DNA from: Crambe crambe
Taxonomy: Eukaryota > Porifera > Demospongiae > Poecilosclerida > Crambeidae
Length of the DNA: 64,000 nt
Assembly: GCA_963924555.1 (NCBI GenBank)
Contig: OZ004581.1
Location: forward strand, 6,115,338 to 6,179,337
Reading direction: 5' to 3'
Below are positions 1 to 61,818 of the stretch, one piece after another; the first letter of the stretch is position 1, and each line of letters begins with the position of its first letter. The position numbers and the translations under genes were made by a program. The notes beneath the pieces are model-generated. The model saw nothing but the letters and a program-made list of their open reading frames with translations. It was not told where the DNA came from and made no database searches.

Positions 1-265
1 AATTCACTTACCAGCAGCCTGGAAACAAAATTGGACAAAGGTATCCCGATGACTAACATTTCACTGTTATAGCAATACATAAGCTGTAACAATGAAAATA
101 AATTAACATGAAATTGAATTTATTACTATCTACCAATTACAGTATGCATTATAGTGTCTTTCCCCACCCCACCCCACCCCCTTATAATCTATCCAAAGAG
201 GGACATACTAGTCTTATTGAACTCCCTCAAAGAGTGTTATAATTTCCATTTTTGTTATCATGTAG
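1..265. other. Intron sequence upstream of the first visible exon
   Basis: AT-rich, with no convincing exon. An open frame over 154-345 runs into the exon at 266 but lacks coding character upstream of the TGTAG acceptor. The stretch near 61-130 (AATGAAAATAAATTAA type) recurs near 58240, so it belongs to a dispersed repeat. Confidence 0.5.
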
Positions 266-328
266 GATCACATACTTCTGCAGGATCACATATCGAAGCA
301 GACTCGGGAGTAATACTGGAAGCAATTG
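266..328 (+). CDS. Cassette exon of the PNP-ankyrin-ROCO-Death gene (short linker)
   Basis: A 63-base exon with acceptor ATCATGTAG and donor GTAAGC, phase 1 at both ends, so it can be skipped or included without changing frame. It encodes a 21-residue linker that includes the core EADSGVILEAI. The exon at 6119-6157 encodes a related core (AEDSGEIL), which suggests the two are duplicated cassettes. No function is recognised for the peptide. The preceding exon, which supplies the first base of the first codon, lies outside the window. Confidence 0.55.
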
Positions 329-3300: not shown

Positions 3301-6300
3301 GGGTAAGGGTCACTTCACTAAGTTCACTCTCTTGCATGCAGTTATAATACATATTCCAGCTAGATTTTTGGGCCATACTGCTTCGATGCTGCAGTACTTG
3401 GTTTTCATAATGAAGCTGCAGTTATAATAGCATCCCTACTTCACATTTTTATTTCGAAGAAATTTTTTGCATTCACTTGTGTTTATAGCAGTGCTAATCT
3501 TGAAAAAGCTTGGAAGTTTAAGTTTTAGTAATCTCACCTTGAAGGATGAGCAACATTTGTCTATCAGAACTATTTATGAAGGATGCAGCGTATTCATGTG
3601 GCTACTTACTGGCTTTGGGAAAACCTTGTGTTATCAAACCCTCCCTTTTATTATGGAACACCAGTATAACCAACTTGGTGATTCTAGAGAACTGTGCTGT
3701 GCTGGTAGTTTCTCCCCTCATAATAATAATTGTAGCAGATGACGCACTGGGCGGCAGAAGTTCACGTGAAATTTACAATCAGTGTGTACCAGGCTCTCTT
3801 TCTTCCCCTTCCTTTTCCGTCAAGGGCATGAACACTAGTCAAGCACTGGGCTGATTAGTCACACCCACATTCAAGGGACAAGTTACTGACTTATCTGGGC
3901 CATTTTTGGTGGCTAGACCTATAATGTTACTTGATTTGCAAAAACCCACACTGTAGTGAAAATATGCTATGTTGATATTCATGATTTGGCTCTCTACTGA
4001 AAGCTTATGATGCCTGAGGAACAGCTCCTAGAAAACTCCAGGTAACATCCATTAGCATTTGAATAAGCAACATAAACATTAAATCCGTTCACACCCGTGT
4101 ACTACTAAAAATTGAGTGGGTGGGGTTTCGAACTAGAGTCGGAGAGAAGCTAGTTTGTCGCCTCCTGGCACTACAGAGCTCCAACTAAAGCCCAGTGAAG
4201 AGCAACAAGGTACCAAAGGTAGCGTAGTTAGTGTAGTTAGCTTAGGTAATTCATATTTCAAGTGTATAAGCTAGAAAGCCTACCTTAGTCAGTGGTGTAG
4301 CCAGGAAGGGGCAGGGGAGGAGGCATTTACCTCCCCTTTTTTCAGAGTTCATTCGCGTGCATTGACTTGTAAATTATAAATTGTGTTATCTATCACTCTT
4401 TTTGCTGATGTTTAGTTAACCTGGTCAACTAGTATAAGGCTCTTTCTTACGGCAGTAGCATTCAAGCGATCTTGCAAGTAGCTGCACTACTTTAACTTCA
4501 CACGTAATTTAATTGGTGGGCATGGCTTCCGGAATCTTTTCATTTGCCCCCTCTTTTCTGATATCCTGGCTACACCTGGTGATTTTCCAGGACTCTCTGC
4601 TCCATGCATGAAACTTTCATGGCTGGCTAACTAGCTTGAAAGTCTTTCTACTTTAGTTTAAGCTCTAAAACTTTATCAGATATTTGTTTAGGGATCACAG
4701 TTGTGATTTATACAGAAAATTTTTTTTAGGATTCACTAAAAATACTCCTACATAATATTTTGGGGGGTTTTTGCAAATTGATATATGCACATTCACTTAA
4801 TAACATCTTCTTAGTTTGTCTCTTCACAGCCAGTTGTAAATATTGACAAACATATAATTTTTTGTAGTGGAGAAGGCTCATTTCTCAGAAGAGGAACAGA
4901 AGCAATTATGTATTGATCACGAACCAGATCCTCAATCTCGTGAAGAAGAAGAAGAACTGGTGGCATTTTGCAAAGAAATTGTCGTAATTCTTCATGTTGC
5001 TAACGACAATGAATATGAAGCAGCAATTACATATATCACTGCACCAAATCAACAGGATAAAAAAGCTAAAAGCTTCCGTGGTTATGAAATTGGTATCTTT
5101 GCTGAACAGAAAGTAAAAGTAGCTTTAATTCGAACTCGTCAAGGTACCAATGCTGGAAAGTATCTTAAAGATGCAATTGATAATCTCTTTTCCAATGTTC
5201 AGTTTATTATTGCTGTTGGTGTTTGTTATTCTTTTGATCGTGAAAAGCATAATCTTGGTGATGTCCTCATTTCCAATCGAATTACTGAAGTCAAAGCTCC
5301 TAAATTTACAGATGGTGCTTCTGGTACTGTCATTGATATTGAATTCCGCGATGAATGTATAAAAATGGATGGCTATCTTGAGAGAGTCTTCTGTTTTAAG
5401 AAAAATTTTTGGAAAGATTATAAAGTGTCTGCTGATCGCTGTTCAAAAGCATATTGTGGTCTGTTCATCTCTGGCTCTTTTCTGATTAATAGCAAACATC
5501 TTCGAGATATATTAAAATCTAAACAAAATGAAGCTATTGGAGGAGAAATGGAAGGTTGTAAACTCCTGGAAATTCAAGAAAGTCTAAAGAAAAAAATTAT
5601 CATAATTAAAGGAGTTGCTGATTATGCAGATGGAAAGAAGGATAAAAAATGGCAATTTACTGCAGCCATGGCTGCTTTTAATTATGTGGAAAAAATGATC
5701 AATAAAGAAGGAGCCAACTTCCCTAGAGGTATGATTTTCAATTCATGTATTATAATGGTGGGATATTATCAATGCTGCTATAGAATTGTAGTAAATATCC
5801 TTCTACATAGCTACGTAACTGACACACGCAATTAGATAGAACCTAATGTTTCTGACTTGTATTTTTTTAATATTATGTATGATATTATTAACACAGAACA
5901 CTGCATAGGGCGTGCTGAAGGTATAGGGAAAGAAACTTCTGCGACATCTGTACCTTTTCAAGCACATACAGGTTGGTTTCAAAAGCTTATTGACCTAAAA
6001 GACATGTACATATCTACATGAGTGGGTGTAAGAACCACGAATGACATGGGTGTATACATGACATGTACATGAATAACACAATTAGAATTTAGTTGATGCC
6101 AGTATTATTAATTTACAGGAACTCGTCGTATCGCAGAAGATTCAGGTGAAATCCTTGGTAAGGAGATTTATTTAGCTTTGCTCATGTGTATTTGGGTACT
6201 TGATACCCGGCAACACGTTTACATGCACAACAATATTCCTGACTCAGCTAGCAAACAATTTAGTATTTAAGTAATTGTCTAAGCAACTTCTGTGGTGCTA

Positions 6301-12300: not shown

Positions 12301-15300
12301 CCATGGGAAGCTACAGCAGAGCTGCTAATTTTATCATGGATATGCTGCCAGTTAATACACTGCTGCAAAGCATGTAGCTATATACTAGAATGAGAAAGGC
12401 AGTTTCGAGTAGTTTCAATTAAAATGAGGGAAGGCATATACATTTTTTGCCTTGTACACTAAACGGCTTTTCGATGTCTTGTGCATCCTAAAGAATTTCG
12501 TATTAGGGCTAGCGTCATCTGCAGTAACAGCGATTACTTTGAGGCTTGTGGTCTTTATTGCTGCAAAACCTTCCAGAAATAGTAGATCTGCTGTGATCCC
12601 CTCAGTGGAAAATATGCAAGTGGAAAGTCGAATGCCACAAACCATCACAGCTAAAATTTGCTTTGCGGAGTATCGGCATCACATTCAGCTTTTAATAAGT
12701 CATCATTGATACTTCCAAGATTGCAAAGTCCTATGATGTTTCCCCGAGCATTTATCAAAAATGATGTATTCCTTGTTTTTCATCTCATCTCATACTATGG
12801 TGGTCACATACCGTCTGCTCTCAGACAACTCATTACAATTAGATTTATGCCTCATCATGTCAATCGATTCCTGCTGATAGACTTGATGTAGTTGGTGTAA
12901 TCTCTGTTTGTTCTGATGGAAGGGTTATGAAACCACTAGATCGCATAGCATGATAGGCAGCACTAGAGATTAGTTTGAGATTCAGACACCATTTGATAAT
13001 TATTGGGTGCCACCTATAATAATATTGCCTAGTATTTGATTTCTTTGAATTTTCAATTTGTTGGTCCCAGAAAATTCCTCAAAACCCACTTGTTTGAGAT
13101 TCAGACACCATTTGATCATTACTGGGTGCCACCTATATTGCCTAGCATTTGATTTCTTTGAATATTCAATTTGTTGGTCCCAGAAAACTCTTCGAAACCC
13201 ACTTGGACTTACTACAGAGTGCAGAACAAGTTTCAGGACCAGGAAGTTTACTGTTTCAGAATATGGCAAGCAGCTAAGTTGCCAGATTCTTCTTCTTCTT
13301 ATCTATTATTCTTCTTAGACAATCATATCTCGCAAACCATTCTAGATACCAGCTACAATCTTCTCTACTTGTTGATCCTTGCAAGTGTCGATGTAAAAGG
13401 AGACACTATAGGACACAACGCTATACTATCTTAACTATTGAAAGCCATTAGTAATATGAATGGCATGTTGGTAGAAATATAGCAAGGGTTTGTTTTTTTG
13501 CTCCGTGCAGCAGTGTTGTAATTATTATTGTGCTGATGATTTAGGTTTAGTTGGAGGATATGAGGTAATGATAGCAAGACTGGAAAACCTAGAGAGTCCA
13601 AGACTGAAGCAAGAACAGAACAGAATAATTGACAGATTCAAATTGAAGTTGAAAGAGTTTCAACATCAGGTCATAACTAAGGAAAGCTTGAAAATTGAAT
13701 GGGAAATATTGGAAGCTGAAGAGGCTAAACTGAAGGCCCAGGCAAAAAAAGCCCAGAGACTTCAAACAGTCTTAGTCCAAGCTCTCCTGAATGAACACTT
13801 GGGAGTATTGGAAATGGCCAGGAATGCACTAATCAAGTACTTTAATGGAGAAAAGACCTCAAGATCTCAGGTTTTGGATTTCTGTGGCAGTGATATAGAC
13901 AGTTACAAGGTACATTAATTGGTCATATAACTGTGGGATGGATTCATTGGATGTGTAGGTTCCTGAGAAGTATCTTGCATACACACCTCTCATGATGGCC
14001 TTGGAGGAGGGAAAGATTGACATTGCAAAGAAGCTGATAGAGTTGGGGGCTTCAGGAGCATACAGCAATAAGGTGAGGTATTATAGCTTACATGTACGTA
14101 TATGGCTTTGTGGGCTCTGATTCATACATGATGGAGCTACGAAATGAAGTACATGTATGGTTCACTAATGCAAATCCTAAACTTGACTTTTGCTTTAAAA
14201 TAGGATTGTTTTGGCCCATTACACATTGCCTCTAGTACTAATAGAAAGAAATTTGTTTATGTGGTAGCCTATTGTCTAACGACAACCTCTGAACTGAAAT
14301 AAGGACATGCACCTCTTTAATCTGGACACTTTTTTTCAATGCAGAAGGGGCAGACTGCTGTGCACTTAGCTGCAAAGGAAGGACAACTAGATGTACTGCA
14401 AGAGCTTTATAGAATGTTAGTGCCATCTTCTGATGATGACGACAGACCTGATATGGAAAGATTATTTGTGGCTACTGACAAGGTTTTTAGCAGGATGTGT
14501 GTGATGATCTTGATTGATTCTGCTATACCTTTATCATTCAGGAAGGCTGGAATGTTCTCCATTATGCTTGTGCTGAAGGGCATAAGACTTTGTTAGATTG
14601 GCTATTGAAAACCATTCCAGAATTAAAAACATGGGAATATTTGAACCAAAAATCTGTGGTATGTGCAGCTGACTAGATGAGGTTTTCTATATTCAATTGT
14701 ATTTGTGTACATGATTAGAGTGGTTACACTCCATTGCTGGTGGCTTGTGAGAACATTGAGGAGAAGATACTCAAGTACCTGCTAGAGGATGAGAAACTGG
14801 TGAAACTGGTGGACTTTAAAGCCTGTACTAACATTACAGGTGGTGATGGTAACAAAACTGGCCTTCATTTGGCAGCTACTTATGACATGGATGAAATGGC
14901 TAGACTCCTAATTAAAGGTGGATGCCTTATTGATGCTAAGGATGCTAAGGTATATGTGGGTTATTTCCTCAACTTCTGTGAATTTGATAACCAAGCTCGT
15001 GTACTTGCTGATGGCATGCTTAGTCCTTTATGTAGTATTCTATGTAGCAACTTCACTCGCCTACCTCATTTTCTAAGCAAGTTCACTTGCTTTCATACTC
15101 CATGCATGTACCAAGTTCGAGACTATCAGATGTACGGTTGCTATGCTCACATGACCTTAATTAGGGGTGTGTGGCACTCAAATTTTCTGCCTGGATTGAG
15201 CACCCTCTTACCTCTGTGTACTGTAAGCTTACTGCAGTGCAGAGGGTTTGCACTTTAGTGCTTACATTATTATCAGGCTTTCTCTCTGCAGGGCAACACA

Positions 15301-17235
15301 GCTTTGCACATAGCTGTTGCTAAGTCCAGCACTTCAGTTGCCAGTATTTTAAGGGGCTCTGAAGGTGGTGCTAAATTGGACAGGATGGAAAATGATGTAA
15401 GTGTGACCTGCAAATGACTACTACTTTGTAGTGACACTAAACTTGAACCCACCAGTGAAGGTTTTACACTGTTAGCCAATTGGCTATTGCACATGTCTGG
15501 TGACCTTAGTTATGAATACACCTTACAGACATAAATTTCATATGCAATCATTTTAGGCTGGAAAAGTACCAGGAGATATCTCCCCTGAAAAAGGTAAGTA
15601 ATTTCATGCCAAAGCTCACAAGATATTTACAGTATAAAAACCTACTTGGGGGGGGGGGGGGGGGGGGGGGGCTGAAATTGAAATTTTGCAATGTTTGGCA
15701 TAACTTGCATTCCTCCACGTGGGGTGACCTGTGGCAATGCCATGTAGGGGAATGTACATGTGTATAATTTTGTATCACCATGTGTAATGAATGTATGTAT
15801 ATGTAATTCTGTAATCATCACATGCCCTTTATGTTCATGTAATTCTGTATCATCTTGTGTATGTGTTAATCCTTGTTCCCGCATGTTCTAACAAGGATTA
15901 ACACATACACAAGATGATACACGAACATAAAGGGCATGTGGTGATTACAGAATTACATACATACATAGATACATACATTCATTACACATGGTGATACAAA
16001 ATTATACACATACACATGTACATTCCCCTACATGGCATTGCCACGGGTCACCCCACGTGGAGGCCATCCGTCCACACTCTCATATCCTACATAGTAGCTA
16101 TACCCTATCTAGGGATCTATACTGATGTGTCCATACTTGCACTTTATTAATTAGGTACACACTTTGCTTATAAGCGCATTCCAATCGAGGCATGGCTGCT
16201 TAGCAGTTGAGTTTCTCTGCAATGGTAGTGTTCTCGAGTGTCTAAGTAGTTTTCAACTGTAGCATCTCATAGCCAGGCCACTACTCATCTCATTGATTCA
16301 TCAACAAACACTCAAACAAATTCAGGGAAGTGATAATGTCCAACAGGGGGTCACCTTGATTGAGCTAGAGGCAGTGATGTAGGGATTATTATTGAAGGCA
16401 GCATAGTTTTGATGTTTGTTCACAGAAACTGCTATAGATAAAAGTACAGACTAACACTACATGGCCGTTTTATTTAGCATATTTTTTCCCCTTCATTTGT
16501 AATATTTATTATAGCTAATAATTCAGGACACTAGAAGTCATTTCATTCCATTTAATGTAGTCCGTTAAATGATCTCTGATAGTAAATGGGGAACATAACT
16601 AATCTATGCAGAAACATGTAGCATACAGGCTAGTGTACTGCCAAATTATATTAAATATACGTAGAAGAATCACTATAGGAAAAATTACACTTTCCTGTTG
16701 ACATTAGCATGGATACAGGTGAAACGGGAGGAAAGAAAGCTTTGAGATCACTTGTAGATAGAAGGTACATCATTCAGATTGAAGGAAGGAATTGGCAACC
16801 TTCCTTCTGATGAAAAAGATGCTGCTGACACGTCTCTTCTTCCAGTGATTCCACCTGCCAGTTCAGATTTCCCATCAATTTCACTAGTCAAATCAATACC
16901 TTCTAGAATAGACTTTAGTGCCTAGGTTTTACGCTCTGAGCATCGAGAGACCAACATCACAAGAGAGAAAGCCAATGACAGATTCAGTTGTGAGGTCAGG
17001 GGCGGGAGATAAAATGTCTGCCACGTTGTAGGTTGAAAGCTAGCAAATTGGAAAATGACGTGCTATTTCGAACATGTCGAGTTAAAGGTAAAGGATTGTC
17101 GAGTGCAAAAGATCGTAGTTAGTAGAATTTGGAGTGGATTTATCCAGTAATCATACTTGTATCTTGAGTGGTTTGAGAGATACGGTTGTCTAAGAATTTA
17201 CATACCAAGTACGTAGAAGAAAAAAAGAAATAATC

Positions 17236-17279
<44 letters not shown>

Positions 17280-29200: not shown

Positions 29201-32200
29201 GTTTATATGTAACAAAGTACTGTAACCACAACATGAACTGGGGATTTTAGATCACCAATCCTAGACTCTATTTCAGATTCATCTGCATCTTTGACCTCCA
29301 TGTATAGCTCAATACTAACACTTCTCGCTGATAAATAGTCATTGGGCTGGTATGCTATTGGAGAACTATTCTTCTTTCATCTGTCCCTGCATACACATAG
29401 AAGAATGAACTCTATACATAAAACAGAGGAAACAGGAACAAGTAAGGGGAAAAACATTTCTGTGAAATCAAAAAAAAATATGTAGGGATGACCATTGCTC
29501 AAAACAAGGGTAGGGATGGATGGAAATGGGATCAATCTTTGTTCTGTATATCCAGCCAATAATCCCTACATATACGTATATTACTGCACTATAATCTGAA
29601 GCTACCTGACGTATATGTAGGGATTGTTGGCTGAATATACAGAACAAAAATTGATCCCATTCCATCCTTCATCCCTACCCTTATTTCCTTACTTTTTTGA
29701 GCAATGGTCATTCCTATCATTTCACGGAAATGTTTTTTCCCTTATAACTATAATACAGGCACATCAATCACAAGCAATTAATATCACCATAACAACCTAC
29801 TTGTGAGGTTGAAAATCTAAGTGATTTATCAAATACAACAATTCTCTCTACAACTCTTTATTGAGTATGGTTATCTCTATATAAGCTAGGGTATTCCCCT
29901 CAAATTTCAGGATAAATGCTAACTGTATTGGGCAAAGAGAATGCAAGACAACAAATACATTGTTAATGGTTCATACTAAATCTGGGTACAATGCTGTTTG
30001 TTAAGGCAAAGTACAATAGATTTCTTATCCCATAGGTTTCATTATTCCTGCTGAAATAGAGAAGAGGGGTCCTGAAGCTAAAGCAATTTACACAAAGGCC
30101 CTGCAGGAAGGCAACTGCAAAATCCCTTATTGCAAATTGCTGATTCTCGGGCAAGAAAGAATGGGCAAATCAAGTCTGTACCGCCAGCTGGCTGGACAAC
30201 CATTTGACGAGAACCTGATTCCAACTCGGGGGATTGACAATAATGTGTTGAATGGCATAGTTGACATGAGGCAGTTAAGTATCGAGTGGAAAGAGAAGGA
30301 ATCTGGTACATGTAGTATTTTCGTACAGAAATTTGCAAGTTTACTGGAGAAAGAGTTGCCCACTGTTGAAAAGAGGGGGGTGGAAGAGGTTTCTTGTGAG
30401 GAGCTAAAAGAGAAAACCCAAGGGATTATTTCAGAAATAGAGTCCATGTTGAAACAACCCTTGCATCCACAACCTTCCCGCAGCAGTGAATCCTTTACTA
30501 AGAGTGAACCCTCTTCTAAGAGTAAGAGTGAATCCTCTTCTAAAAGTAAGAGTGAATCCTCTTCTAAAAGTAAGAGTGAACCTTCCACGACAACCACTCC
30601 AGCACAACTTCATCCACCAATTCAGGGTATTGGTCGTAAACAGCAGTCAAACCTTGATTTTCGATTAAGGAAAGGTGACACGAATGTTTCTTCTCTGGTA
30701 CTAAATGCTCTGGATTTTGCAGGACAGAAGAAGTATCGATCGATGCACCACTGCTTCATCTCAAGACGAGCCCTCTATGCAGTTGTCTTCAAGATTCCAG
30801 ATATGATAAAATATAAAAGAAAAACAGCTGATTGTCCTACTGTGGATCCATTTCAAGAGCTTCGCTACTGGCTCCACTCGATCCATGCTCACCTTGACCC
30901 CAAAGAAAAAGACCGGCAGAATCTGAGAAGAGTCTTTCTGGTTGGCACACACAGAAATGATTTTGGCAGTGCTGATGATCTTGATGAAATTAATGCACTC
31001 TTTGAAAAGGATAAAGCTTCCAGATACCGGAATCATATTCACATGCATAAAAATCGTCATTTTTTTGCTGTAGAGAATTCCATTGATAAAGAATCCAGCA
31101 GTAATTACCTCACAGAGAGTGGAATAAAGGATCTGCAAGATGAGCTCAAAAAGACCTTGGAAGAGCTTCCTTTCCTTAAAGAAGATCACCCTGTCAATTA
31201 CCTCTGTTTGGAAGACTGGATTGAAGATCTTCGCATCTCCATCGAGCCTACACCTATCACAGATCTGATTGAGATAAGAAAATTGGCCAAAAAGTGTGGC
31301 CTTAGGGGGGAAAAAAAGCAGGATGAAGCATTTCAGTTCCTCCATGATACTGGCAAGATTCTTTTGCTAAGTAAGTTATAGCCAAAGTTCTTAATATTAT
31401 TATCATTCAAATTTGTTTTGTTCCAGGAAATTTACCACGCCTTTTTTTAGCTCACAATGAGCATAAAGAATTAGAGAATCTTGTGGTTCTCCGTCGATCT
31501 TGGCTATTTGAAGCGATGGCTGTTATTATGGAGTTGAAGAGTGAGACTATTAAAGAGCTATCAAATATTCAAAGTGATACCATAAAACAAGGTGTGGCTG
31601 ATGAAGACGCTCTTCTGAAGTGCTGGATGAAATTTATTTCTCAGGATGACAATCCAGCTGAGCGCTTTAAGCACCTGTGCCTGATACTTCAAGCTTATTG
31701 TCTCATCTACCCCATTCCTGAGGAAGCTGCTTCTTATTGTCACGAGCCAGTACTGAAAAAGGCAAGATGTGTAAGAAAGTATCTTATTCCTTGCAAGCTT
31801 CCTGAGCTATCAGAGGAATTAAAGAATTCAAAAAAACTTCGTCCTGAACTTTCCTGGTTCTCCATGGATTTCAACTTTCGTAAGTTTCTTCCTGCTGAGA
31901 TCTACTACCAGCTGGTCTGCTTTCTCCTTACTTCTTCTGAAACTGATTCCCCACCAGACCAAGAACCCAATTTCTTCACCAGCACTGTGTGTGTCCTCTA
32001 TAATATCAAAGATAGCCACTGGAAAATAGAATATGAGAGAGATTCCCATAGACTCATAATTGCCATTACGTAAGTTTGTTAGCTATATAGGTAGCTAATA
32101 CACGTTTGCATGCATGTCCATGGTGTTATGCTGGGAACATGCACTTCAACTATACCAATAGCTACTTTCACATTATGATTTATTTATTGCACAGGCCATC

Positions 32201-35200
32201 TCGTGGTGATAAACTTAAGCATATTAGGGATATCCATGAAAATTATCTTTCTAAGATATGTGAGGATAGCAATCTTGAAAGGCTGATGTACTATGGAGGG
32301 CCCCTTGGAGTGAAGTGTTCTCACTGCTCAAATTCTCAACTACCTTATGTGAGCTATGGGGGAAATAGAAAAATGGAGAAAAGTACAGAGTAAGTTTTCG
32401 ACAGTAATGACATAGAGGACCCTGTTAGTGTTTAACGAGCCTTTGCCACATGTAGCTTCAAAGTCAAATGTGAGAACTGCCTGGAGGAGACTAACATAAA
32501 TGATGAACTGGCTAAGGTGAGGAAACTAACTCCAGTATAATATCTGACATTATCATGATTGTATTGTGTATCACTCATTAATCTCATTGTACTACTGTAG
32601 CTCATGACTGGAGGTGGAAATGGTGTGAAGGGACCTGTCCCAGTTCTCCCTTCAGGTTAGTGTGAGTCCCATTGTCCTCCATGGATCCATTAAACACTCC
32701 TGTGAAGGATGTGTGAGTCTGATCATGTGGCAGGACATAGGTGATAAATGCAATTTTTATGAGTACAATTGATGATGTTATCAATCAGGAATGTTAAAGC
32801 TCCCCCCCCCCCCCCCCCCCCGATAGAGTCGATTAAGTTAATGTTCATAGTCAATCCCATGCAGCACTGCGCCTTGGCACTTCAGTGACAAAGCAAAAAG
32901 CATGCATTAATTGGAGTCCAGTCTCAATTTTGTACCTTTAACTTTTATTTTAGAGCACAGCTAGATTTTCTTTTGTACAGCATAGTGATAATCTCTAAGC
33001 TAAAATGATCACTATGGATTTTAAAAAATCAGAAATGAGGAATCTTTTGATAGATTTTGGGATGATCAAACCTCTCTTCAATAGAAGATACTAAAGCTTC
33101 ATAATACTATGGTCTGTAGAATTCTTTAGGATTCTGGAAATTAACTTCTTCAGGGCATCCATCATCAAGACTTCTGGGTAGCTTTCTCCTTCTTGGAAGT
33201 TTGGGGTCTATTATTATATCTTCCACATCTAATGACTGACAACAAATATCAACTTTCAATACATTTATACAGCCCAAGGCCATCACACAGTTGCATTTGG
33301 GTCTTCAAACCTTATCTGCCAATATTCCTACCTGCATAATTATAAAAAATATATAATTGCAGCGAGCGAGCTGACTCTCAGGTCATGACCCATTGAAATT
33401 GTAGATATATATATCTATGTCTACACTCCAAAATGCCCCAGGCTTACCTACGTAATAGTAGCATGCATGTAATCGAACTAAATTGTTTTGTACAACCTTT
33501 TGTCATAGAGGCACTTGGCTTGTCTAAATGGATTGTAGGCGCTTGGCTTATCTAAGTGCTTGTGGTAAATATTTACAGCTTTGGAACCACCACTAACATG
33601 ATACTTAGCAATATCAAACACTGGAGCCTATCAGCTACTTTTACTTGCTCACTTGGTCACTTTCAAATGCTGCACATTGGTATAATAATAGTTGTAGAGG
33701 CTCTACAGGCTTATCTAAGTGCTTTGTTACATATAAACTCAGCAGCAAAGTTTTAGCACTAAAGAGTATTTGCTTGCTCGCTCGCTGTTAACTGAATGTT
33801 GAACATTGCCCTAGTTATATCAGTGCAGAAAGAAACCTGATATCTGCCATCAACTAATGTTAGTGAGTGCTCCTTTAGTGCTTGACCTCTTTTCATTGCC
33901 AATGAGTTTGGTACTGCTTCTGATCACAGACTGAATTGAAATCTTTGGGAAGTTCAGTGAATCTAATAATTATATTGCCTGGTGGATGTAAATCATCTCT
34001 TCAATGCTCTTCCCCAAAAATTATATTATGTGGAGATTGGTCTGGGAATGAGACTACTGCATGCACTGCATGACCATAGTATGGTCTGACCAATAAATAA
34101 TAGCTTCCTATGGGCTTGCATTGATAGTTAAACAGTGTATCATGACTGACTGATATACATTTCTCATAAATTGATTAACTTACAATGGCCATGGAACTTA
34201 TATTGCTAGCTAGATGAGACCCCCCACTTTAATTTTGCTTCCGACACCCCTGACATTACATGTTCTCTGCATGTGTTGTACTGCAGCATGAAATTACTAG
34301 GGCAGTGTCAACATTTGAAACTGAGTGTAATTGAACATGTACACTGAGTCAAGCACTGGGTGGATTAGTCACACCCACATTCAAGGGACAAGTTACTGAG
34401 TATATCTGGGCCATTTTTGGTAGCATAGACCTATATTAGCCTCGAACCCAGCCTCTCTTTTCCTTTTCTTGGGGGCGGGGGAAAAAGAGAGCCTGGTATC
34501 CACTGTTTGCGCATGGGCCAGTTTTTCCCAGAAATCTGGGAATCAGGATATCACTCGGATATTTCCGCTACATGATCATCATAATTAATGGGCGCAGTCG
34601 CACAACTAGTACAATGCTGCATAGTTTTACTCTTGCTCCTGCTGCTCTTCGTTTCTCCTTGGAGAAACTTGGCATTCCCGAAGAAGGAACAACACACTGC
34701 TGTCAAGGCAGTCTACGATGGGAAGGATGTTTCTGTTTATCTACCAAACTTGTTAAGAAAGATCAGTTCTACCAGACTCTCCCCTTCATGATGATGCTGG
34801 TGAAAGCGTAGTGCAGTACTGGTTGCCTCTCCACTAGTTGCTCTGATCATAGATGTAGATATATGCTCTGATGATCGACCAACAATGTTTTGGCCAGTAC
34901 TACTTCGCTACATCTGTCAGTCTTACATCAAATAGCCTCTTCTGTGCCCCTGAAGCCCTGATGCCCTGGAGGATCTAAACATTCTCGGAATATAGGAATA
35001 GTACGACATCATGCATGATCATGCATGAGATCGCTAGCACCTGGCTGGACATCAAAATTTATCATCGCGTGCGCGTTTATTAATTATATAATTCAAAAAT
35101 TGGCGCATGCGCAAACAGTGGATACCAGGCTCTCTTTTTCCCCATCCCAAAATAAAAAGGAAAAAAGAGGCTGGGTTCAAGGCTAAGACCTATATATGCA

Positions 35201-41200: not shown

Positions 41201-42213
41201 GCCTCGTCGTGTTGCTTAGAGAGCATCCCTGCCACTTCTCTTCTGTATTGCTTGCAACCACAGGGATTAACCCATGGCCAAGTTTATAACCGCATTGAAG
41301 TAGCTAGATTGACATAATACATAGGTCAGTCAAGGTGTCCCCTCATAGTCATGTGCAGCCTTTGTGATGATGGATGAGTAGGCCAACAGCTCTCTAACCT
41401 CTGAGGTTGCTAGAAAGCAACTACACTTATGTACGCATTAAAGCAGACCACCCATTGCTCAATGCTTCATCTCCCTCTTTCGGCTGTGTCCAGAGTTGAT
41501 TCTGGTGCTCCCAATCCCAGCCAGAATGCGCATTCAGATCCACAAACTCACCACTCTAGATCTTATTAGTGAGTTTGGCTGGTAGGTTTTGCCAACCAAC
41601 CAACCATGCAGAGGCAAAGTGAGTGCAAATGGACAATAATAATTATTGTATTATAATTATTATAGGCCCCCAGCCCAAGCATCCTGCAGGTGAATCTGAC
41701 AAGAACAGCACCAGCCAGAGTACTAATTATTTATCTACAGCAGATCACTTCGAAATATGTAGATATCTCAAAGACTTAGACGATGATGACCTTATAGAGT
41801 TAGGTACCGCTCTTGGTCTGTTATTTCCAAACCTCAAGAAGATGAAGAAACTTCCTCAGGATATGGTGCAAGCATGGATCAACAAAAAAGATAATGTGCT
41901 CAAAGTAAGCGGTGTTCCATCTTGGAATTCTCTTATCACTGCCCTAGAGAAAATCAATCAGAATGGGGTTGCTGCCACATTAAAGGAAGGTAACTGAAAT
42001 ACGTTGTAAAATTAAAATCTGTGATGTCATAATACCACGAAACCTTAGGTTGATCTAGCTGTGTGTATACTGACAGATTCTATTAGCTAAACCAAAATCC
42101 TCAGTTGAAATGTTATGTTGTAATAATCATGTGACCTCATTAGTTACTTAAGACCATTATTTTTTTTTATAATAGAGAAGATGCAGCATTTGGGGAAGAA
42201 GAAAGAGCCCTGA
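266..42213 (+). CDS. PNP_UDP-ankyrin-Roc/COR-Death multidomain protein (DAPK-like order), 5' end outside window
   Basis: I assemble 19 exons: 266-328, 4868-5728, 5897-5971, 6119-6157, 13545-13909, 13959-14072, 14204-14263, 14345-14482, 14542-14658, 14719-14949, 15292-15396, 15557-15593, 30036-31370, 31427-32069, 32195-32389, 32456-32516, 32601-32655, 41666-41989 and 42176-42213. All introns are GT..AG, all junction phases agree, and the sum leaves an open frame of about 1617 residues ending in TGA at 42211-42213. Domain order is cassette exons, PNP_UDP-like, coiled coil, ankyrin repeats, Roc GTPase, COR, a CxxC pair, Death. Vertebrate DAPK1 has kinase-ankyrin-ROCO-Death, so the likely role is cytoplasmic signalling in cell death or immunity; that role is inference. 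Three introns of 7 to 14 kb are filled with transposons. The end of exon 14204-14263 is ambiguous (several in-frame GT sites), and further small exons in the big introns cannot be excluded. The alternative is two or three neighbouring genes, but phase agreement at every joint argues for one. Confidence 0.75.
778..1478. repeat. Tandem triplication, unit about 232 bases
   Basis: Three head-to-tail copies start at 778, 1011 and 1242. Each begins with a small palindrome of the form AGAGAGTG..TAG..CACTCTCT, followed by AAGTAGGGATGGC, then a pyrimidine tract and an AG-rich block ending in GTTCTTTTTCTTTAT. The minus-strand open frame across all three copies is a by-product of the repeat. The hairpin also occurs singly at 9513-9534 and 39691-39712, so the unit derives from a dispersed mobile element. 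Confidence 0.85.
1709..2235. mobile_element. Non-autonomous DNA element with about 45-base terminal inverted repeats
   Basis: The left end reads AATCGTATAAATTTTCG at about 1720-1736. The right end near 2205-2222 carries the reverse complement (CGAAAATTTATACGATT) and ends TAGCCA. The interior has more CpG than its surroundings, including palindromic GCGCATGCG-like stretches, as expected of a young or unmethylated element. No coding capacity is seen. The exact ends and target duplication are unresolved. Confidence 0.6.
3030..3481. repeat. Long near-perfect palindrome (foldback element), arms about 215 bases
   Basis: The left arm starts ACAAGTGAATGCAAAAAAT near 3034 and reads inward to about 3246. 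The right arm mirrors it from about 3262 to 3480. Only a handful of mismatches and single-base indels separate the arms, with a spacer of about 15 bases. The end motif (TTTTTTGCATTCACTTGT) also occurs alone at 8809-8827, so this is a dispersed foldback or MITE family. Confidence 0.85.
3488..3745 (+). pseudogene. RecQ-like helicase fragment (relic)
   Basis: The translation over 3500-3690 contains an ATPase Walker A-like motif (TGFGKT) followed by LCYQTLPFIMEH, the typical motif I neighbourhood of RecQ helicases. A second frame at about 3690-3720 gives VLVVSPL, as in motif Ia. A frame change and loss of the remaining motifs show that it is a fragment. It is followed at 3788 by an ACCAGGCTCTCTTTCTTCC stretch matching the terminal repeat of the element at 34437-35185, which also carries a RecQ fragment. 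It is probably transposon cargo. Confidence 0.55.
4868..5728 (+). CDS. PNP_UDP-like (nucleoside phosphorylase/nucleosidase fold) exon of the large gene
   Basis: A single 861-base exon (287 codons), acceptor TTTTTGTAG, donor GTATGA, phase 1 at both ends. The fold is recognised from the first strand (VVILHVANDNEYEAA), the mid-domain segment FIIAVGVCYS..LGDVLIS, the ribose-binding GGEMEG motif and GVADYADGKKDKKWQ near the end. Enzymes of this family cleave or phosphorolyse N-glycosidic bonds, and the same fold is fused to NACHT/NB-ARC and ankyrin repeats in fungal immune-type receptors. The glycine-rich phosphate loop reads VGVCYS, which departs from the usual G-x-G/A-G pattern, so catalysis is uncertain and a ligand-sensing role is possible. 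An acidic segment (REEEEELVAF) precedes the domain. Codon use matches the other exons. Confidence 0.75.
5897..6157 (+). CDS. Two short phase-1 linker exons after the PNP domain
   Basis: Exons 5897-5971 (25 codons) and 6119-6157 (13 codons) both have AG acceptors and GT donors and are phase 1 at both ends. They encode a polar linker. The second carries the AEDSGEIL core resembling the exon at 266-328. A decayed copy of the second exon exists at 35311-35342, lacking one codon and its donor site. No domain is recognised. Confidence 0.55.
6946..6969. repeat. Poly-C run of 24 bases
   Basis: A homopolymer in the duplicated segment, with a counterpart at about 35830-35850. It is likely length-variable. 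Confidence 0.9.
7270..7765 (-). pseudogene. P-element/THAP9-like transposase relic (copy 1)
   Basis: This segment is closely similar to 8880-9395 and 36170-36640. In the best-preserved copy (8880-9395) the minus strand reads a P-element-like transposase segment; here small deletions and stops break the frame. It lies within the segmental duplication. Confidence 0.55.
8220..8516 (-). other. 98-codon open frame of unknown status (copy A)
   Basis: An open frame on the minus strand with a near-identical twin at 37104-37400 (two residue differences seen near the start). Conservation is explained by the recent duplication and is not evidence of selection. No domain is recognised. It sits beside CpG-richer sequence (CCGGCCGGCC at about 8142) and may be part of an old mobile element. 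Confidence 0.25.
8880..9395 (-). pseudogene. P-element/THAP9-like transposase relic (copy 2, best preserved)
   Basis: The minus-strand frame 9371-9087 reads SSAYHGMRSSGFVTLSSER, then TLWNYTNYF, then GFQDEV and RYVAVLVDEMK. This order is the conserved region at the start of the P-element/THAP9 transposase catalytic domain: an RSSGF block, a TLRDYT-like block and a DEM segment. It is truncated on both sides with no THAP finger seen, so it is a dead fragment. A foldback-family end (TTTTTTGCATTCACTTGT) abuts it at 8809-8827. Confidence 0.6.
9930..10062. repeat. Imperfect hairpin element
   Basis: The left arm CAGCAACAAGTGACCCC..CCCATCACC near 9930-9963 is mirrored by GGTGATGGGTACGT..CACTTGTTGCTG near 10015-10052. 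A related single arm occurs near 43113-43155. It looks like a small MITE. Confidence 0.6.
10885..12010 (-). pseudogene. hAT-superfamily transposase relic
   Basis: The minus frame 11196-10882 ends with LAVVLLVTTATIERSFSDIK, the hallmark hAT C-terminal dimerisation motif (TT-A-ERSFS). The minus frame 11881-11654 reads MGFDGASATSG..GV and then ALYVHCRCHQLQLAA, the FDGA..HC-H-LNL block of hAT/ZMYM-type transposases. The pieces are in the right order but separated by stops and frame changes, so it is a decayed copy oriented opposite to the host gene. Confidence 0.7.
12410..13275 (-). pseudogene. P-element/THAP9-like transposase relic with internal 113-base duplication
   Basis: The minus strand reads MRSSGFITLPSEQT near 12945-12900 and KVIAVTADDASPNTKFFRMH near 12540-12480, the RSSGF and D-GASPN-KFF blocks of P-element-like transposases, in the correct order. 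The part at 12973-13199 is a tandem duplication of about 113 bases (GATTCAGACACCATTTGAT twice). Stops and frameshifts show decay. It is a different and older copy than those at 7.3, 8.9 and 36.2 kb. Confidence 0.6.
13545..15593 (+). CDS. Coiled-coil and ankyrin-repeat block of the large gene
   Basis: Eight exons. The first (13545-13909) enters in phase 1, matching the 6157 donor, and encodes a charged coiled coil (EAEEAKLKAQAKKAQRLQ and flanks). The next seven give ankyrin repeats: YTPLMMALEEGKIDIAKKLI, GPLHIASSTN, QTAVHLAAKEGQLDVLQEL, GWNVLHYACAEGHKTLLDWL, GYTPLLVACE, KTGLHLAATYDMDEMARLLI and GNTALHIAVAK. Internal introns are phase 0, short and roughly one per repeat. The last exon (15557-15593) ends in phase 1 with GDISPEK, matching the Roc exon. 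Ankyrin repeats bind partner proteins; in DAPK1 they lie just before the Roc-COR unit, as here. The donor of the second ankyrin exon is ambiguous among three in-frame GT sites. Confidence 0.78.
15648..15671. repeat. Poly-G run of 24 bases
   Basis: A homopolymer G tract just inside the intron after the last ankyrin exon. It is likely length-variable and sequencing-prone. Confidence 0.9.
15711..16063. repeat. Long palindrome (foldback), arms about 170 bases
   Basis: The left arm begins CCTCCACGTGGGGTGACC at 15712. The right arm ends GGTCACCCCACGTGGAGG at 16063. The centre is near 15885, around TGTTAGAACATGCG-type sequence. Arms agree apart from small insertions such as an extra ACATACATAGAT block on the right. 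It is a non-coding foldback element. Confidence 0.85.
17235..17278. repeat. (AAAT)n microsatellite
   Basis: About eleven AAAT units in tandem. Confidence 0.9.
18247..18822. mobile_element. 576-base MITE with long TIRs and 7-base target duplication
   Basis: The termini are CTAGTCTGGCGGCGCCGACC and its counterpart ending GGTCGGCGCAGCCAGACTAG. The inverted repeats continue for about 75 bases through CTGGTAACTCTAGCATA. The element is bordered on both sides by the direct repeat GTTGACT (18240-18246 and 18823-18829). The interior has no transposase. A degenerate relative of the end (CTAGTCTGGTGGGCCAGACC) appears at about 26987. Confidence 0.85.
18848..19696. repeat. CTAGGGCAATG repeat family, copy 1, interrupted by a MITE
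   Basis: It begins CTAGGGCAATGTGCAACATT and carries a GACAGCGAGCGGGCAAGC block. It ends near CTGGGGCATTTTGGAGTGTA. Other copies lie at about 24526-25100, 25108-25880, 29117-29225 and, inverted, 33405-33815. This copy is split by the TIR element at 19166-19530. No coding capacity. Confidence 0.75.
19166..19530. mobile_element. 365-base MITE inserted at TA in the CTAGGGCAATG repeat
   Basis: Ends CCATACTCGTGTGTTATTAG and CTAATAACGCACGAGTACGG are inverted repeats of about 25 bases, each flanked by TA. Uninterrupted family copies read through the site (CTACAATCCACTTAGATAAG), which supports insertion here. The interior has repeated GGCGC/GCGC words and no open frame. A TA target suggests a Tc1/mariner-type source. 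Confidence 0.7.
20319..20978 (-). CDS. OTU-family cysteine protease domain ORF (Helitron-associated)
   Basis: An intact 219-codon frame. The OTU catalytic block IEGDSNCLFRSLSF has the expected Asp..Cys arrangement. The region WGSQVEIIALAHLLNTPVYS is typical of the OTU fold, and a late His occurs in SSHYEVV. OTU enzymes are deubiquitinases, and OTU domains are known inside Helitron/Helentron polyproteins. The frame follows Rep-derived sequence on the same strand at 20992-21195 and 21221-21493, so it is transposon cargo. It is the only undamaged module of the element. Exaptation is possible, but no host splice sites were identified. Confidence 0.7.
   Translation of the reverse strand: MPPLELDSDSPNLPEDGNRGVHITEVDQDAYRSRFRYNPVDVKWQQRVCRAMGLEYCGPNGVTPGDPDVSLTPPRKFRRIEGDSNCLFRSLSFIITGSEEQHMLVRQAIIGNMRSLGEVLWENHIYPDVNYRHGIEHYIAETHLEHYGSWGSQVEIIALAHLLNTPVYSYATTGGSRAWQLYKPQAAYGFLDLSQDNFDGMAMYIHHCSSHYEVVTSVE
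20990..21488 (-). pseudogene. Helitron Rep C-terminal part with YxxKY segment
   Basis: The minus frames read ATSIVTEDGKLKILTARND, then WRANVDMQYVVSRQRVIQYV running into AKYATKAEPRS. The tyrosine pair YVAKY matches the catalytic tyrosines of Helitron Rep. A frame change follows, then LLINSVAERDFSAQETCHLL, also typical of Helitrons. The sequence upstream jumps to the inverted piece at 21488. Confidence 0.7.
21488..21655 (+). pseudogene. Inverted 168-base Helitron piece (Cys-rich segment)
   Basis: On the plus strand this encodes NPHVCNKAYTEVKDFKLDL, then IATCQRHTRCSTAYC and ECRFGYPKP. In Helitron proteins this block lies between the HUH motif and the ITARND block. Here both neighbours are on the minus strand, so the piece is flipped in place. 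The reading frame is still open. Confidence 0.7.
21656..22404 (-). pseudogene. Helitron Rep HUH domain
   Basis: The minus frame reads GNYFKHLMMYGEGQFAKHPR, then FRYFALNTEMRW, and further on FEWQHRGSPHVHGLAWFKDA with the two-His HUH motif (HVHG). A frameshift follows, and the frame 21841-21641 continues with VEQLLSSDEDSG and ISTINPAIAADGS. It starts at the flipped junction near 22404 with CAFPTLLPTGAADFVA. Confidence 0.7.
22404..22975 (+). pseudogene. Inverted 570-base Helitron N-domain piece
   Basis: The plus strand encodes DVAEQMLISAVMPLMAIYRL, then after a one-base shift HGQYGYRGHVMNLPQDLTTF, TFATSLPRLPSELDV and HRDFRVRRSVVLRALQWLK, ending INEFTTEG. In Helitron proteins this precedes the CAFPTL..GAADF segment, which is found on the minus strand immediately next to it. 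The piece that should precede it (NMIPGPVPQELQ, minus, about 23060) adjoins its other end. Confidence 0.7.
23057..23673 (-). pseudogene. Helitron N-terminal Arg/Glu-rich repeat region
   Basis: The minus frame from ATG at about 23645 encodes repeats of the type ARLEKLRARQNERLAAESAE, with one in-frame TGA at about 23378 where the repeat predicts Arg (CGA). The frame continues through RARRLENMRQSRISHQE to IPGPVPQELQ near 23057. A GT donor-like site there and a CAG at about 22987 bound a 70-base intron-like gap. Upstream (23680-23800) lies a CpG-rich leader that is repeated at 24400-24530. Confidence 0.65.
24020..24530 (-). pseudogene. Second Helitron 5' end (Arg/Glu-rich leader copy)
   Basis: The minus strand over 24020-24345 repeats the Arg/Glu-rich coding region of 23380-23650 but with frameshifts. 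Its upstream leader (24395-24530) matches 23680-23805, including ATGCGCATGCG and the GCTTCGCTCGCTCGCC end. Only the 5' part is present, so this is a truncated or solo-end copy. Confidence 0.6.
24526..25880. repeat. CTAGGGCAATG repeat family, two tandem copies
   Basis: Copies start at about 24526 and 25108 (CTAGGGCAATGTTCAACATT). Both end near CTGGGGCATTTTGGAGTGTA, at about 25096 and 25860. Each contains the GACAGCGAGCGAGCAAGCAA block and several TTAGATAAGCC repeats. Because the first begins at a Helitron-like end (GCTTCGCTCGCTCGCC), the family may be non-autonomous Helitron-related; that is inference. From 25881 to 26490 I see nothing else of note. Confidence 0.7.
26493..26612. repeat. GC-rich hairpin element
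   Basis: The arms run from GTTATTAACCGCGC..GTGAATTATAAGCACTCG to CGTGCTTATAATTCGACTAC..GGTTAATAAC around a CCCTCGGGCTTCGCCCTCGG-type loop. It is a self-complementary non-coding repeat. Confidence 0.75.
26662..26784. repeat. Palindrome P1, about 123 bases
   Basis: ATTGATACCGTTAAATATCA at the left is mirrored by TGATATTTCACGGTATCTAC at the right around a CGAGTGCATGCTGCAGGCAC centre. A close copy is at 27409-27534. A TIR element starts immediately after each copy. A 47-base direct repeat with GAGTCATGACCTGAGAGTCA precedes it (26615-26661) and recurs at 29068-29116. Confidence 0.8.
26788..27406. mobile_element. Non-autonomous TIR element (0.6 kb) related to the recombinase-bearing element
   Basis: The left end TTTATTATGTAACTACTGAG and the right end CTCAGTAACTACATAATAAA are inverted repeats. 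The last 115 bases (27291-27406), including the GACTACGCGATAT doublet, match 28949-29063 of the neighbouring element. No gene is inside. It also includes CTAGTCTGGTGGGCCAGACC near 26987. Confidence 0.7.
27409..27534. repeat. Palindrome P2, about 126 bases
   Basis: GATTATTACATTGATACCGT is mirrored by CGGTATCTACGTAATAATC, around CGAGTGCCGCAGGCACGAGT. It is nearly identical to P1 at 26662-26784 and lies between the two related TIR elements. Confidence 0.8.
27535..29063. mobile_element. 1.5-kb TIR element carrying a tyrosine-recombinase-like gene
   Basis: Inverted ends TTTATTATGTAGTTACTGAG and CTCAGTAACTACATAATAAA enclose one three-exon gene (27636-28882). The right 115 bases are shared with the smaller element at 26788-27406. 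A gene-bearing and a gene-less member with the same ends side by side suggest an autonomous/non-autonomous pair. Confidence 0.65.
27636..28882 (+). CDS. Tyrosine-recombinase-like protein (KIAA1958/DUF3504-type), 372 residues
   Basis: Three exons (27636-27686, 27748-27813, 27881-28882) with GT..AG introns of 61 and 67 bases and phase 0 junctions give an uninterrupted frame from ATG (AAAAATGG) to TGA. The central part (KRKTESDLKKWYTWC, then PEILQNTVWFLLTLHMGMRG) and the end (KTNHSARKTMVTALTNK, LTGHKNLQSLNSY) resemble the tyrosine-recombinase-derived domain of KIAA1958/ZMYM-type proteins. An Arg (GMRGRDE), an HxxR (HSAR), a His (TGHK) and a candidate Tyr (NSY) are present. Compared with what I know of the family, the stretch between the first Arg and HSAR looks about 100 residues short, so activity is doubtful. 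It lies within TIR ends and is most likely mobile-element encoded, on the same strand as the host gene. Confidence 0.65.
29068..29225. repeat. Flanking direct repeat plus CTAGGGCAATG family fragment
   Basis: A 47-base block (29068-29116, with GAGTCATGACCTGAGAGTCA) repeats 26615-26661. It is followed by the start of a CTAGGGCAATG family copy that breaks off near 29225. The same block is found inverted at 33357-33400, next to another family copy. Confidence 0.7.
29245..29780. mobile_element. Foldback MITE, copy 1 (partner 47910-48440)
   Basis: The inner palindrome (29430-29745) has arms with GGGATCAATCTTTGTTCTGT and TTGATCCCATTCCATCC, with TACGTATATGTAGGGATTGT near the centre. Outer sequence (CTTCTTTCATCTGTCCCTGC, then AGAAGAATGAACTCTATACA) is shared with the copy at 47910-48440. 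No coding content. From 29781 to 30035 I see only AT-rich intron leading to the Roc acceptor. Confidence 0.8.
30036..32655 (+). CDS. Roc GTPase, COR and CxxC-linker block of the large gene
   Basis: Five exons (30036-31370, 31427-32069, 32195-32389, 32456-32516, 32601-32655) with phases 1, 1, 2, 2, 0 in and 1 out. The GTPase shows G1 GQERMGKSS, G3 LDFAGQKKY and G4 VGTHRND, the Roc signature (DxxGQ, THxD). Between switch I and G3 lies a long insert with SSSKSKSE repeated three times. The COR part begins near HPVNYLCLEDWIEDL, with FQFLHDTGKILLL, LPRLFLAHNEHKELENLVVL and FFTSTVCVLYNIKDSHWKIE. Two CxxC pairs follow (VKCSHC and VKCENC, 24 residues apart after splicing), a possible zinc knuckle. Roc-COR proteins are dimerisation-coupled GTPases. 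The upstream lead-in (IPAEIEKRGPEAKAIYTKAL) is helical and joins the ankyrin block. Confidence 0.8.
33010..33310 (-). pseudogene. hAT/ZMYM-type transposase fragment
   Basis: The minus strand yields KLPRRRKLPRSLDDGC followed by VNFQNPKEFYR and SSIEERFD. This resembles the LPRRRK..P.R.DDG and ..YYR..YYE segment of hAT/ZMYM1-like transposases. It is broken by stops. Confidence 0.5.
33405..33815. repeat. Inverted copy of the CTAGGGCAATG family
   Basis: It reads from CACTCCAAAATGCCCCAG at about 33424 to AATGTTGAACATTGCCCTAG at about 33796-33815, the reverse complement of the family. The flanking block with TGACTCTCAGGTCATGACCC (33371-33390) is the inverted form of the 47-base direct repeat. Confidence 0.75.
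34437..35185. mobile_element. 749-base TIR element with target duplication, carrying a RecQ fragment
   Basis: The TIRs of about 80 bases start TAGCCTCGAACCCAGCCTCT on the left and, complemented, TAGCCTTGAACCCAGCCTCT on the right. They run through GAGAGCCTGGTATCCACTGT. The flanks carry the direct repeat AGACCTATAT (34427-34436 and 35186-35195). The paralogous site at about 3915-3924 reads AGACCTATAA without insertion, an internal empty-site control. Inside, 34640-34800 encodes LEKLGIPEE and, one frame over, EQHTAVKAVYDGKDVSVYLP, a RecQ-like helicase N-terminal fragment. Confidence 0.88.
36170..36640 (-). pseudogene. P-element/THAP9-like transposase relic (copy 3)
   Basis: This is the copy-B twin of 7270-7765, with the same truncation and extra small deletions. 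See 8880-9395 for the motifs. Confidence 0.5.
37104..37400 (-). other. 98-codon open frame (copy B)
   Basis: Twin of 8220-8516, differing by a few bases. No domain is recognised. It is kept as an unexplained open frame only because it is intact in both copies. Confidence 0.25.
38370..39005 (-). pseudogene. hAT/ZMYM-type (DUF4371-like) transposase relic
   Basis: The minus strand reads FSDWKKATLWFKEHELSKAH, then RRNSLMKQLKALRYLLRQGL, then NKYQSPEIINEMMALKVLRS and, across a small break, WFSLLADETRNISN. This order and the ADETRD-like motif match DUF4371/hAT proteins related to ZMYM1. The C-terminal hAT dimerisation part is missing here, and frame breaks mark it as dead. Confidence 0.65.
39513..39554. 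repeat. G-run followed by C-run
   Basis: Ten G, a short spacer, then blocks of C up to 39554. This is a potential hairpin, with a polymerase-slippage or assembly risk. A solo AGAGAGTG..CACTCTCT hairpin follows at 39691-39712. Confidence 0.8.
40190..41115 (-). pseudogene. LINE reverse-transcriptase fragments
   Basis: The minus frame 41108-40920 contains FQLIDAVLVPIPKKDDFSRC followed by DNWRGI and LQKLAEDELPE, the region around the NWRGI motif of non-LTR reverse transcriptases. Further down (about 40430-40190) the minus strand gives SVLLYGARV and EEGWEMRRLQLRRL, resembling the C-terminal LLYG..GH module. The parts between are deleted or scrambled. Confidence 0.6.
41666..42213 (+). CDS. Death-domain exon and terminal exon of the large gene
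   Basis: Exon 41666-41989 enters and leaves in phase 1. It encodes a proline/serine-rich lead (GPQPKHPAGESDKNST) and a six-helix Death-fold sequence: FEICRYLKDLDDDDLIELG, LGLLFPNLKKM, MVQAWINKKDNVLK, SWNSLITALEKINQNGVAA. The W-I-N/R and SW-L..AL positions are those conserved in Death domains. The last exon 42176-42213 adds a basic tail (KMQHLGKKKEP) and TGA. An AATAAA signal occurs about 280 bases further on (about 42490). Death domains self-associate or recruit other Death proteins. Placement at the C terminus after Roc-COR is the same as in DAPK1 and other ROCO-Death proteins. Confidence 0.75.

Positions 42214-43423: not shown

Positions 43424-61818
<18,395 letters not shown>

Follow-up and report, generated by a model that had tools for sequence, protein, structure and literature searches.

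The 64,000-nucleotide stretch of the sponge Crambe crambe analyzed here (C1:6115338-6179337, hereafter the window) carries a genuine gene of a locally expanded ROCO family. Its product is DAPK1-like but kinase-less, with ankyrin repeats followed by Roc, COR and a terminal domain that is probably death-like. On the same strand, upstream of this ankyrin-Roc-COR core, lies an exon with the fold and the conserved catalytic-type residues of a PNP-superfamily nucleosidase. Our leading reading, which we hold with about even confidence, is that this PNP exon is spliced to the core, giving one gene of the order PNP, ankyrin repeats, Roc, COR and death-like domain.

Gene organization in the window

The exon chain was started from stop-to-stop frames searched with Pfam, which located PNP_UDP_1 (4858-5832), ankyrin repeats (14.3-15.3 kb) and, at 30.0-32.1 kb, Roc and COR; the remaining exon borders were taken from paralogs in the same genome (143 Mb in 119 contigs searched). 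The rebuilt chain consists of 15 exons on the plus strand (4868-42213) that encode 1538 residues, with no internal stops and a stop codon at 42213. An initial annotation had described nineteen exons from position 266, with AG and GT borders and matching phases. The latter properties hold for the rebuilt exons, as AG is present in all 15 acceptors and GT in all 14 internal donors and the phases agree at every junction, but the rebuilding did not recover four of the nineteen, among them the start at 266, and 266-342 (25 codons) is without coding signal in any frame. The phases of the chain fit because two mini-exons (15557-15593 and 32601-32655) are included, both of which were detected only via paralog comparison. 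The exons, with the evidence for each, are as follows.

4868..5728, plus strand: PNP_UDP_1 (nucleosidase-type) exon, phase 1-1; PF01048, MTAN-like fold, PADLOC; putative member of the same gene
13545..13909, plus strand: first ankyrin-block exon, phase 1 in and 0 out; extension of ~62 codons and conserved ankyrin start, in-frame ATG at 13568; paralogs
13959..14072, plus strand: ankyrin exon A0, phase 0-0; paralogs, splice borders, Pfam on the model
14345..14482, plus strand: ankyrin exon A1, phase 0-0; Pfam on the ORF, paralogs, splice borders
14542..14658, plus strand: ankyrin exon A1b, phase 0-0; paralogs, splice borders
14719..14949, plus strand: ankyrin exon A2, phase 0-0; Pfam Ank 1.1e-7 on the ORF, paralogs, splice borders
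15292..15396, plus strand: ankyrin exon A3, phase 0-0; paralogs, splice borders
15557..15593, plus strand: mini-exon AGKVPGDISPEKG, phase 0 in and 1 out; counterparts in C6a, C15a, C15c, C12 and C1b, weaker in C1a, C6b and C6c
30036..31370, plus strand: Roc GTPase exon and start of COR, phase 1-1; Pfam Roc 1.2e-12 on the ORF, paralogs, G1, G3 and G4 motifs by eye
31427..32069, plus strand: COR exon, phase 1-2; Pfam COR-A, paralogs
32195..32389, plus strand: COR C-terminal exon (Ct), phase 2-2; paralogs, splice borders, weak COR-B
32456..32516, plus strand: Ct2, the second Ct piece, phase 2-0; separated from Ct by a 66-bp intron
32601..32655, plus strand: linker mini-exon, phase 0 in and 1 out; conserved in C15 copy 2 and, by eye, represented in C6a and C12
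41666..41989, plus strand: death-like domain exon, phase 1-1; in three C6 copies COR is followed by the same type
42176..42213, plus strand: last exon, from phase 1 to the stop codon; splice border, frame

A Pfam search of the spliced translation, for which the initial annotation had predicted PNP_UDP_1, Ank, Roc, COR and Death, returned Ank_2 (9.5e-30), Roc (2.3e-11) and COR-A (1.9e-10) above cut-off, COR-B under it (E 0.014, 15.6 bits vs. a cut-off of 27), a borderline PNP_UDP_1 also under it (E 6e-5, 23.0 bits vs. 25.1) and no Death. The PNP open frame alone passes the cut-off (PF01048, E 2.8e-6, 27.4 bits). Roc followed by COR, the arrangement that characterizes the ROCO family, is therefore present in the model, with Roc and COR-A above cut-off and COR-B under it. 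No Pfam match to a Ser/Thr kinase (E up to 1), to NACHT or NB-ARC, or to TRADD-N was found in the 1538 residues. The coding score of the first ankyrin exon is 0.22 per codon in its extension, higher than in all 206 control ORFs, and only 0.02 in the conserved part; the end of the extension's signal coincides with the acceptor or with ATG 13568 close by, between which the score cannot discriminate.

Several other elements were observed in the window. The Roc exon contains a 24-bp tandem repeat (30485-30582) encoding a Ser/Lys-rich stretch, and the 66-bp intron between Ct and Ct2 (32390-32455) is missing, by eye, from C6a and C15 copy 2 and is apparently young. The 14.4-kb intron before the Roc exon has matches at 20322-23030 to Helitron_like_N (1.3e-31) and OTU (1.2e-8) on the minus strand and to DUF6570 (1.7e-18) on the plus strand. 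At 27307-28993 there is probably a tyrosine-recombinase element, whose DUF3504 or phage-integrase-like frame (27857-28879) is flanked on both sides by a 31-bp copy of the ATATGACTACGCG repeat. Beyond the last exon, a multi-exon ABC transporter gene occupies ~43400-59820 on the minus strand (ABC_membrane 3.3e-24 and 7.9e-19; ABC_tran 3.5e-9).

Paralogs of the ankyrin-Roc-COR core

A search of the genome with Roc gave 61 matches, 16 of which represent the 10 close loci studied here (the window included), and the other 45 are distant (22-36% identity) and were recorded by position only. Counterparts in at least one paralog were found for 13 of the 15 exons; the other two are Ct2, which is a split-off piece of Ct, and the last exon of 13 codons, which was left out of the comparison. 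The order of the core exons is constant among the paralogs. Three copies on C6 (C6a, C6b, and C6c) are compact, at ~5 kb each, and C6a has every core exon in the same order, ending with the death-like exon type of the window. Most of the core exons are also present in C6b and C6c, where A1, A3, and Ct had no match, and the DAPK1-like order without a kinase that was originally proposed is thus well supported for the core. Further support for this order comes from paralogs on C15 and C12 and from C1a and C1b. Two of the C15 copies are nearly identical (98% in Roc), and one of them, C15a, has a TGA within the matched Roc stretch. In the third C15 copy only Roc, COR, and Ct were seen, and it is the nearest relative of the window gene (79-81%).

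In the Roc tree, the window and C15 copy 2 are grouped and set beside C12, C1a, and C1b (100/99). Compared with C15 copy 2, the Roc and COR exons have dN/dS values of 1.04 and 0.98, respectively, and both are free of stops, a state retained in only 0.020 (Roc) and 0.056 (COR) of 5000 neutral simulations each. Because of these open frames, the sequences suggest relaxed or diversifying evolution rather than decay, with a comparator that is itself incomplete. A pseudogene reading of the Roc gene was rejected on the same evidence.

The paralogs differ at both ends of the core. In five of the 10 close loci (C6a, C6b, C6c, C15a, and C15c), the conserved first ankyrin exon is closely preceded by an in-frame ATG, and no PNP is nearby. 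C1a and C1b have no in-frame ATG from the preceding stop to the conserved part of that exon, and an upstream exon is therefore needed there. The first ankyrin exon of C12 has a phase-1 acceptor, an in-frame ATG also being present, and just upstream of the C12 core are two mutually related exons, both of phase 1-1 and DD-like by eye; the one of the two that was scanned had no Pfam Death match. At the C-terminal end, one exon type is shared by the window and the C6 copies, a second type is present, by eye, in C15 copy 1, and that of C15 copy 2 is a third, which matches Pfam Death (2.3e-6). The N-terminal slot is thus variable, as five paralogs have ATG starts and C12 has other exons there, and the variation at both ends makes the termini of the core look exchanged as phase-1 modules. 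For the same reasons, and since the PNP of C12 is at the opposite end of the core, the description of the PNP as standing "in place of" the DAPK1 kinase was misleading.

A large expansion of distant relatives was also observed as a tandem array on C11 (~1.6-3.85 Mb). It accounts for 34 distant ROCO frames in the Roc match list, and 33 of these have a C12-type DD-like exon on the same strand, no more than 15 kb upstream.

The terminal domain

The protein had initially been described as ending in a Death domain and a stop. The stop is present at 42213, but 41666-41989 has no Pfam Death match, and we consider the terminal domain to be probably death-like on the basis of a weak profile link and a predicted structure. 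Pfam Death (PF00531) matched none of seven members of the death-like exon family of the window; alignment of this family to Pfam-recognized Death exons gave an hhalign probability of 5%, and the model of the domain has six helices at low confidence (pLDDT 51.9). Neither Pfam nor PDB profiles gave a credible match for the exon type of the window, and a Death assignment from such profiles was therefore rejected. The exon type has at least 150 matches genome-wide and follows COR in the three C6 copies, and a search of a public protein set with it found two proteins, one of which is the window's own frame. On C16 the same exon type also follows, by eye, a further Roc-COR-like frame (L032).

The PNP exon

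The AlphaFold2 model of the PNP exon has a pLDDT of 91.8, and its top Foldseek matches are futalosine hydrolase and MTA/SAH nucleosidases (MTAN), with E values of ~1e-15, TM scores by query of 0.59-0.68 and 13-20% identity. An alignment of 41 PNP rows showed E226 and E228 to be invariant and D251 to be present in at least 90% of rows. Profile alignment sets the PNP motifs GEMEG and VADYAD against the MTAN motifs EMEA and VSD, in which we place Glu174 and Asp197, the catalytic residues of E. coli MTAN. PDB titles among the fold matches name Asp197 and Glu12 mutants, and the invariant E48 of the PNP, which lies beyond the reach of the alignment, may correspond to Glu12.

The PNP of the window combines two features expected of an immune PNP effector, the superfamily fold and catalytic-type Glu and Asp residues. 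Among the PADLOC anti-phage models it matched PDC-M60C (1.2e-11) and "Effector, PN-superfamily" (2.9e-8); the Roc and death-like exons had no PADLOC match. A nucleotide-sensing role had been suggested for this module. Its closeness in fold to MTA/SAH nucleosidases and futalosine hydrolase, together with the anti-phage model matches, makes nucleotide cleavage the likelier predicted activity and sensing the less likely one.

Relationship of the PNP exon to the core gene

The genome has 18 PNP matches, and the flanks of six were read. The exon is of phase 1-1 in the window, C12, C1b, C1c, and C1d (by eye), and its phase-1 borders are compatible with the ankyrin acceptor, from which it would be separated in the window by an intron of 7.8 kb. 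In the window and C1b the PNP precedes the core, by 8.7 and 4.5 kb, respectively, and in C12 it lies 0.6 kb downstream, so that a same-strand PNP lies no more than 10 kb from the core at three of the 10 close Roc loci. In 20,000 random placements each, three loci were reached at a frequency of 0.00055 across the genome or 0.00015 with the chromosome kept, values to be read with the facts that the 10-kb limit was chosen after the distances were known and that the loci are related by duplication. The PNP tree separates the window pair from the C12 and C1b group, as the Roc tree also does; this fits an old association, and joint duplication would give the same split.

Splicing of the PNP to the core, as initially proposed, is thus plausible, and the above-chance linkage, the need for an upstream exon in C1a and C1b and the phase 1-1 borders favor it. 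It is weakened by the downstream position of the PNP in C12 and the in-frame ATG in the first ankyrin exon there, by a PNP locus with no close Roc gene nearby among the Roc matches listed (C1:4465883), by two PNP matches far from close Roc genes (76 kb from the nearest at C1:5286827, farther still at C1:5385388), by the five paralogs with ATG starts, by the length of the PNP-to-ankyrin intron, by the missing exon ahead of the PNP, by the lack of PADLOC matches for the Roc and death-like exons and by the insensitivity of our exon scan. No exon of at least 20 codons in 1-4867 or 5729-13544 scored above the one minus-strand control (9.1 bits), and the scan of 1-4867 found no exon preceding the PNP; at its 6-bit threshold the scan is insensitive, as A1b, A3 and the last exon, all genuine exons of the window, score 0.2, -0.4 and -2.1 bits, respectively. 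Of six death-type exons from paralogs, five were detectable at 6 bits and four were above the control, and the death-like exon of C1:4465883 was missed at 0.9 bits.

The strongest rival to this fusion, less probable in our estimation and yet a serious contender, is that the window holds two neighboring genes: a PNP gene, whose own death-like exon has been lost or has gone undetected here, and an ankyrin-Roc-COR-death-like gene that starts at the in-frame ATG 13568, as the five paralogs start at theirs. The two would have stayed close because they were duplicated together. C1:4465883 provides a precedent, as its PNP is followed by a death-like exon and has no close Roc relative nearby among the Roc matches listed, and an exon of that type would escape the exon scan. 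In C12, the PNP downstream of Roc is followed by a Pfam Death exon with a stop, an arrangement that may represent two genes or a single one ending in PNP and Death. Against two genes, six DD-type queries (the C1:4465883 exon included) found nothing credible in the PNP-to-ankyrin gap of the window or of C1b (best E 2.3), and an upstream exon is needed in C1a and C1b.

That the PNP exon is an unused relic of segmental duplication in a transposon-rich region, with only the core gene expressed, we consider improbable. The stretch 4636-7176 is indeed duplicated piecewise at C1:5385388 (78-88% DNA identity), where no close Roc gene lies within 170 kb among the Roc matches listed. The missing start exon, a hAT-like transposase (by eye) upstream of the PNP with other repeats around, and a dN/dS of 0.71 for the PNP pair also point this way. 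Nevertheless, neither copy of the PNP exon has lost its frame or either of its splice borders, and the catalytic-type residues have been kept; the open frame itself counts for little, as 0.195 of neutral simulations stay open. We therefore retain the fusion as the leading reading, ahead of two genes and then of a relic.

Proposed mechanism

Under the fusion reading, a constant ankyrin-Roc-COR core would have phase-1 exon modules exchanged at both ends by exon shuffling. Its N-terminal slot would hold nothing, two further exons (C12) or the PNP, and its C-terminal slot one of several death-type exons or, in C12, apparently PNP and Death together. The ankyrin repeats may bind a ligand or partner, upon which the Roc-COR pair would switch by GTP and dimerize, and the death-like domain would recruit or cluster partners. 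The clustered PNP would then act on a nucleotide or nucleoside, most likely one containing adenine, by cleaving its N-glycosidic bond, with cell-autonomous defense or death as the putative outcome.

Splicing of the PNP to the core would mean that a GTPase of the LRRK2 and DAPK1 kind directly gates a nucleotide-cleaving effector. This would tie ROCO biology to the nucleotide-depletion defenses of bacteria and fungi and provide a naturally compact system for finding out what is regulated by GTP switching in ROCO proteins. Whether or not the fusion holds, the locus displays a scheme of end-module shuffling on an ankyrin-ROCO core. We tentatively suggest, as a speculation that we put below either the fusion or the two-gene reading, that this sponge lineage uses a ROCO GTPase as an NLR-like receptor switch, with a constant core and phase-1 end slots for PNP (at either end) and death-type adaptors, which would make it the ROCO equivalent of bacterial defense proteins and of fungal NLRs armed with PNP.

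Comparison with known systems

No PNP-ROCO protein, and no end-module shuffling on an ankyrin-ROCO core, was found in our searches of the open-licence PMC literature. A search of the public protein set with the Roc region found one protein with Pfam Death, TIR, Roc and COR (23% identity) among 7999 scored candidates. This set appears to contain unspliced frames of the window's genome (P0008 is the C1b PNP frame) and therefore cannot show full-length architecture.

Fungal PNP_UDP NLRs fuse PNP_UDP with NACHT or NB-ARC and repeats. They resemble the window model in having an N-terminal PNP_UDP ahead of a nucleotide switch, but that switch is NACHT or NB-ARC, whereas in the window model it is Roc-COR and the repeats come before it. 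Immune ATP nucleosidases (Detocs and its relatives) reportedly occur in both bacteria and eukaryotes and are not known to be fused to ROCO. They share with the window a PNP-superfamily effector in immune-type proteins, and ATP cleavage by the window PNP is putative.

DAPK1 has ankyrin repeats, Roc, COR and a C-terminal death-type domain in the same order as the window model, and a review of Roco proteins (PMC6337361) describes the DAPK1 group as metazoan, with DD and without LRR. Unlike the window model, which has no kinase and in which the PNP is apparently N-terminal, DAPK1 begins with a Ser/Thr kinase and a calmodulin segment, and its C-terminal Death is PF00531, as which the terminal domain of the window is not recognized.

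Among sponges, Amphimedon has Death-like and TRADD-N proteins with variable C-termini and with ankyrin and PNPase among their partner domains, according to the available sections of Kaur et al. (2021; PMC8195603). Death-type families there are large, and the gene content of the window's genome is in keeping with a sponge in this respect. As portrayed there, this family is similar to that of the window in its shuffled death-type modules and its ankyrin and PNPase partners; it differs in TRADD-N, for which the window model has no match, and in those sections ROCO appears once, in a reference title. A further parallel is found in brown algae, whose ROCO genes, as described in PMC11378527, diversified by exon shuffling and are proposed immune receptors. 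There, the shuffled units are phase-2 LRR exons, whereas in the window family they appear to be whole end domains at phase-1 borders.
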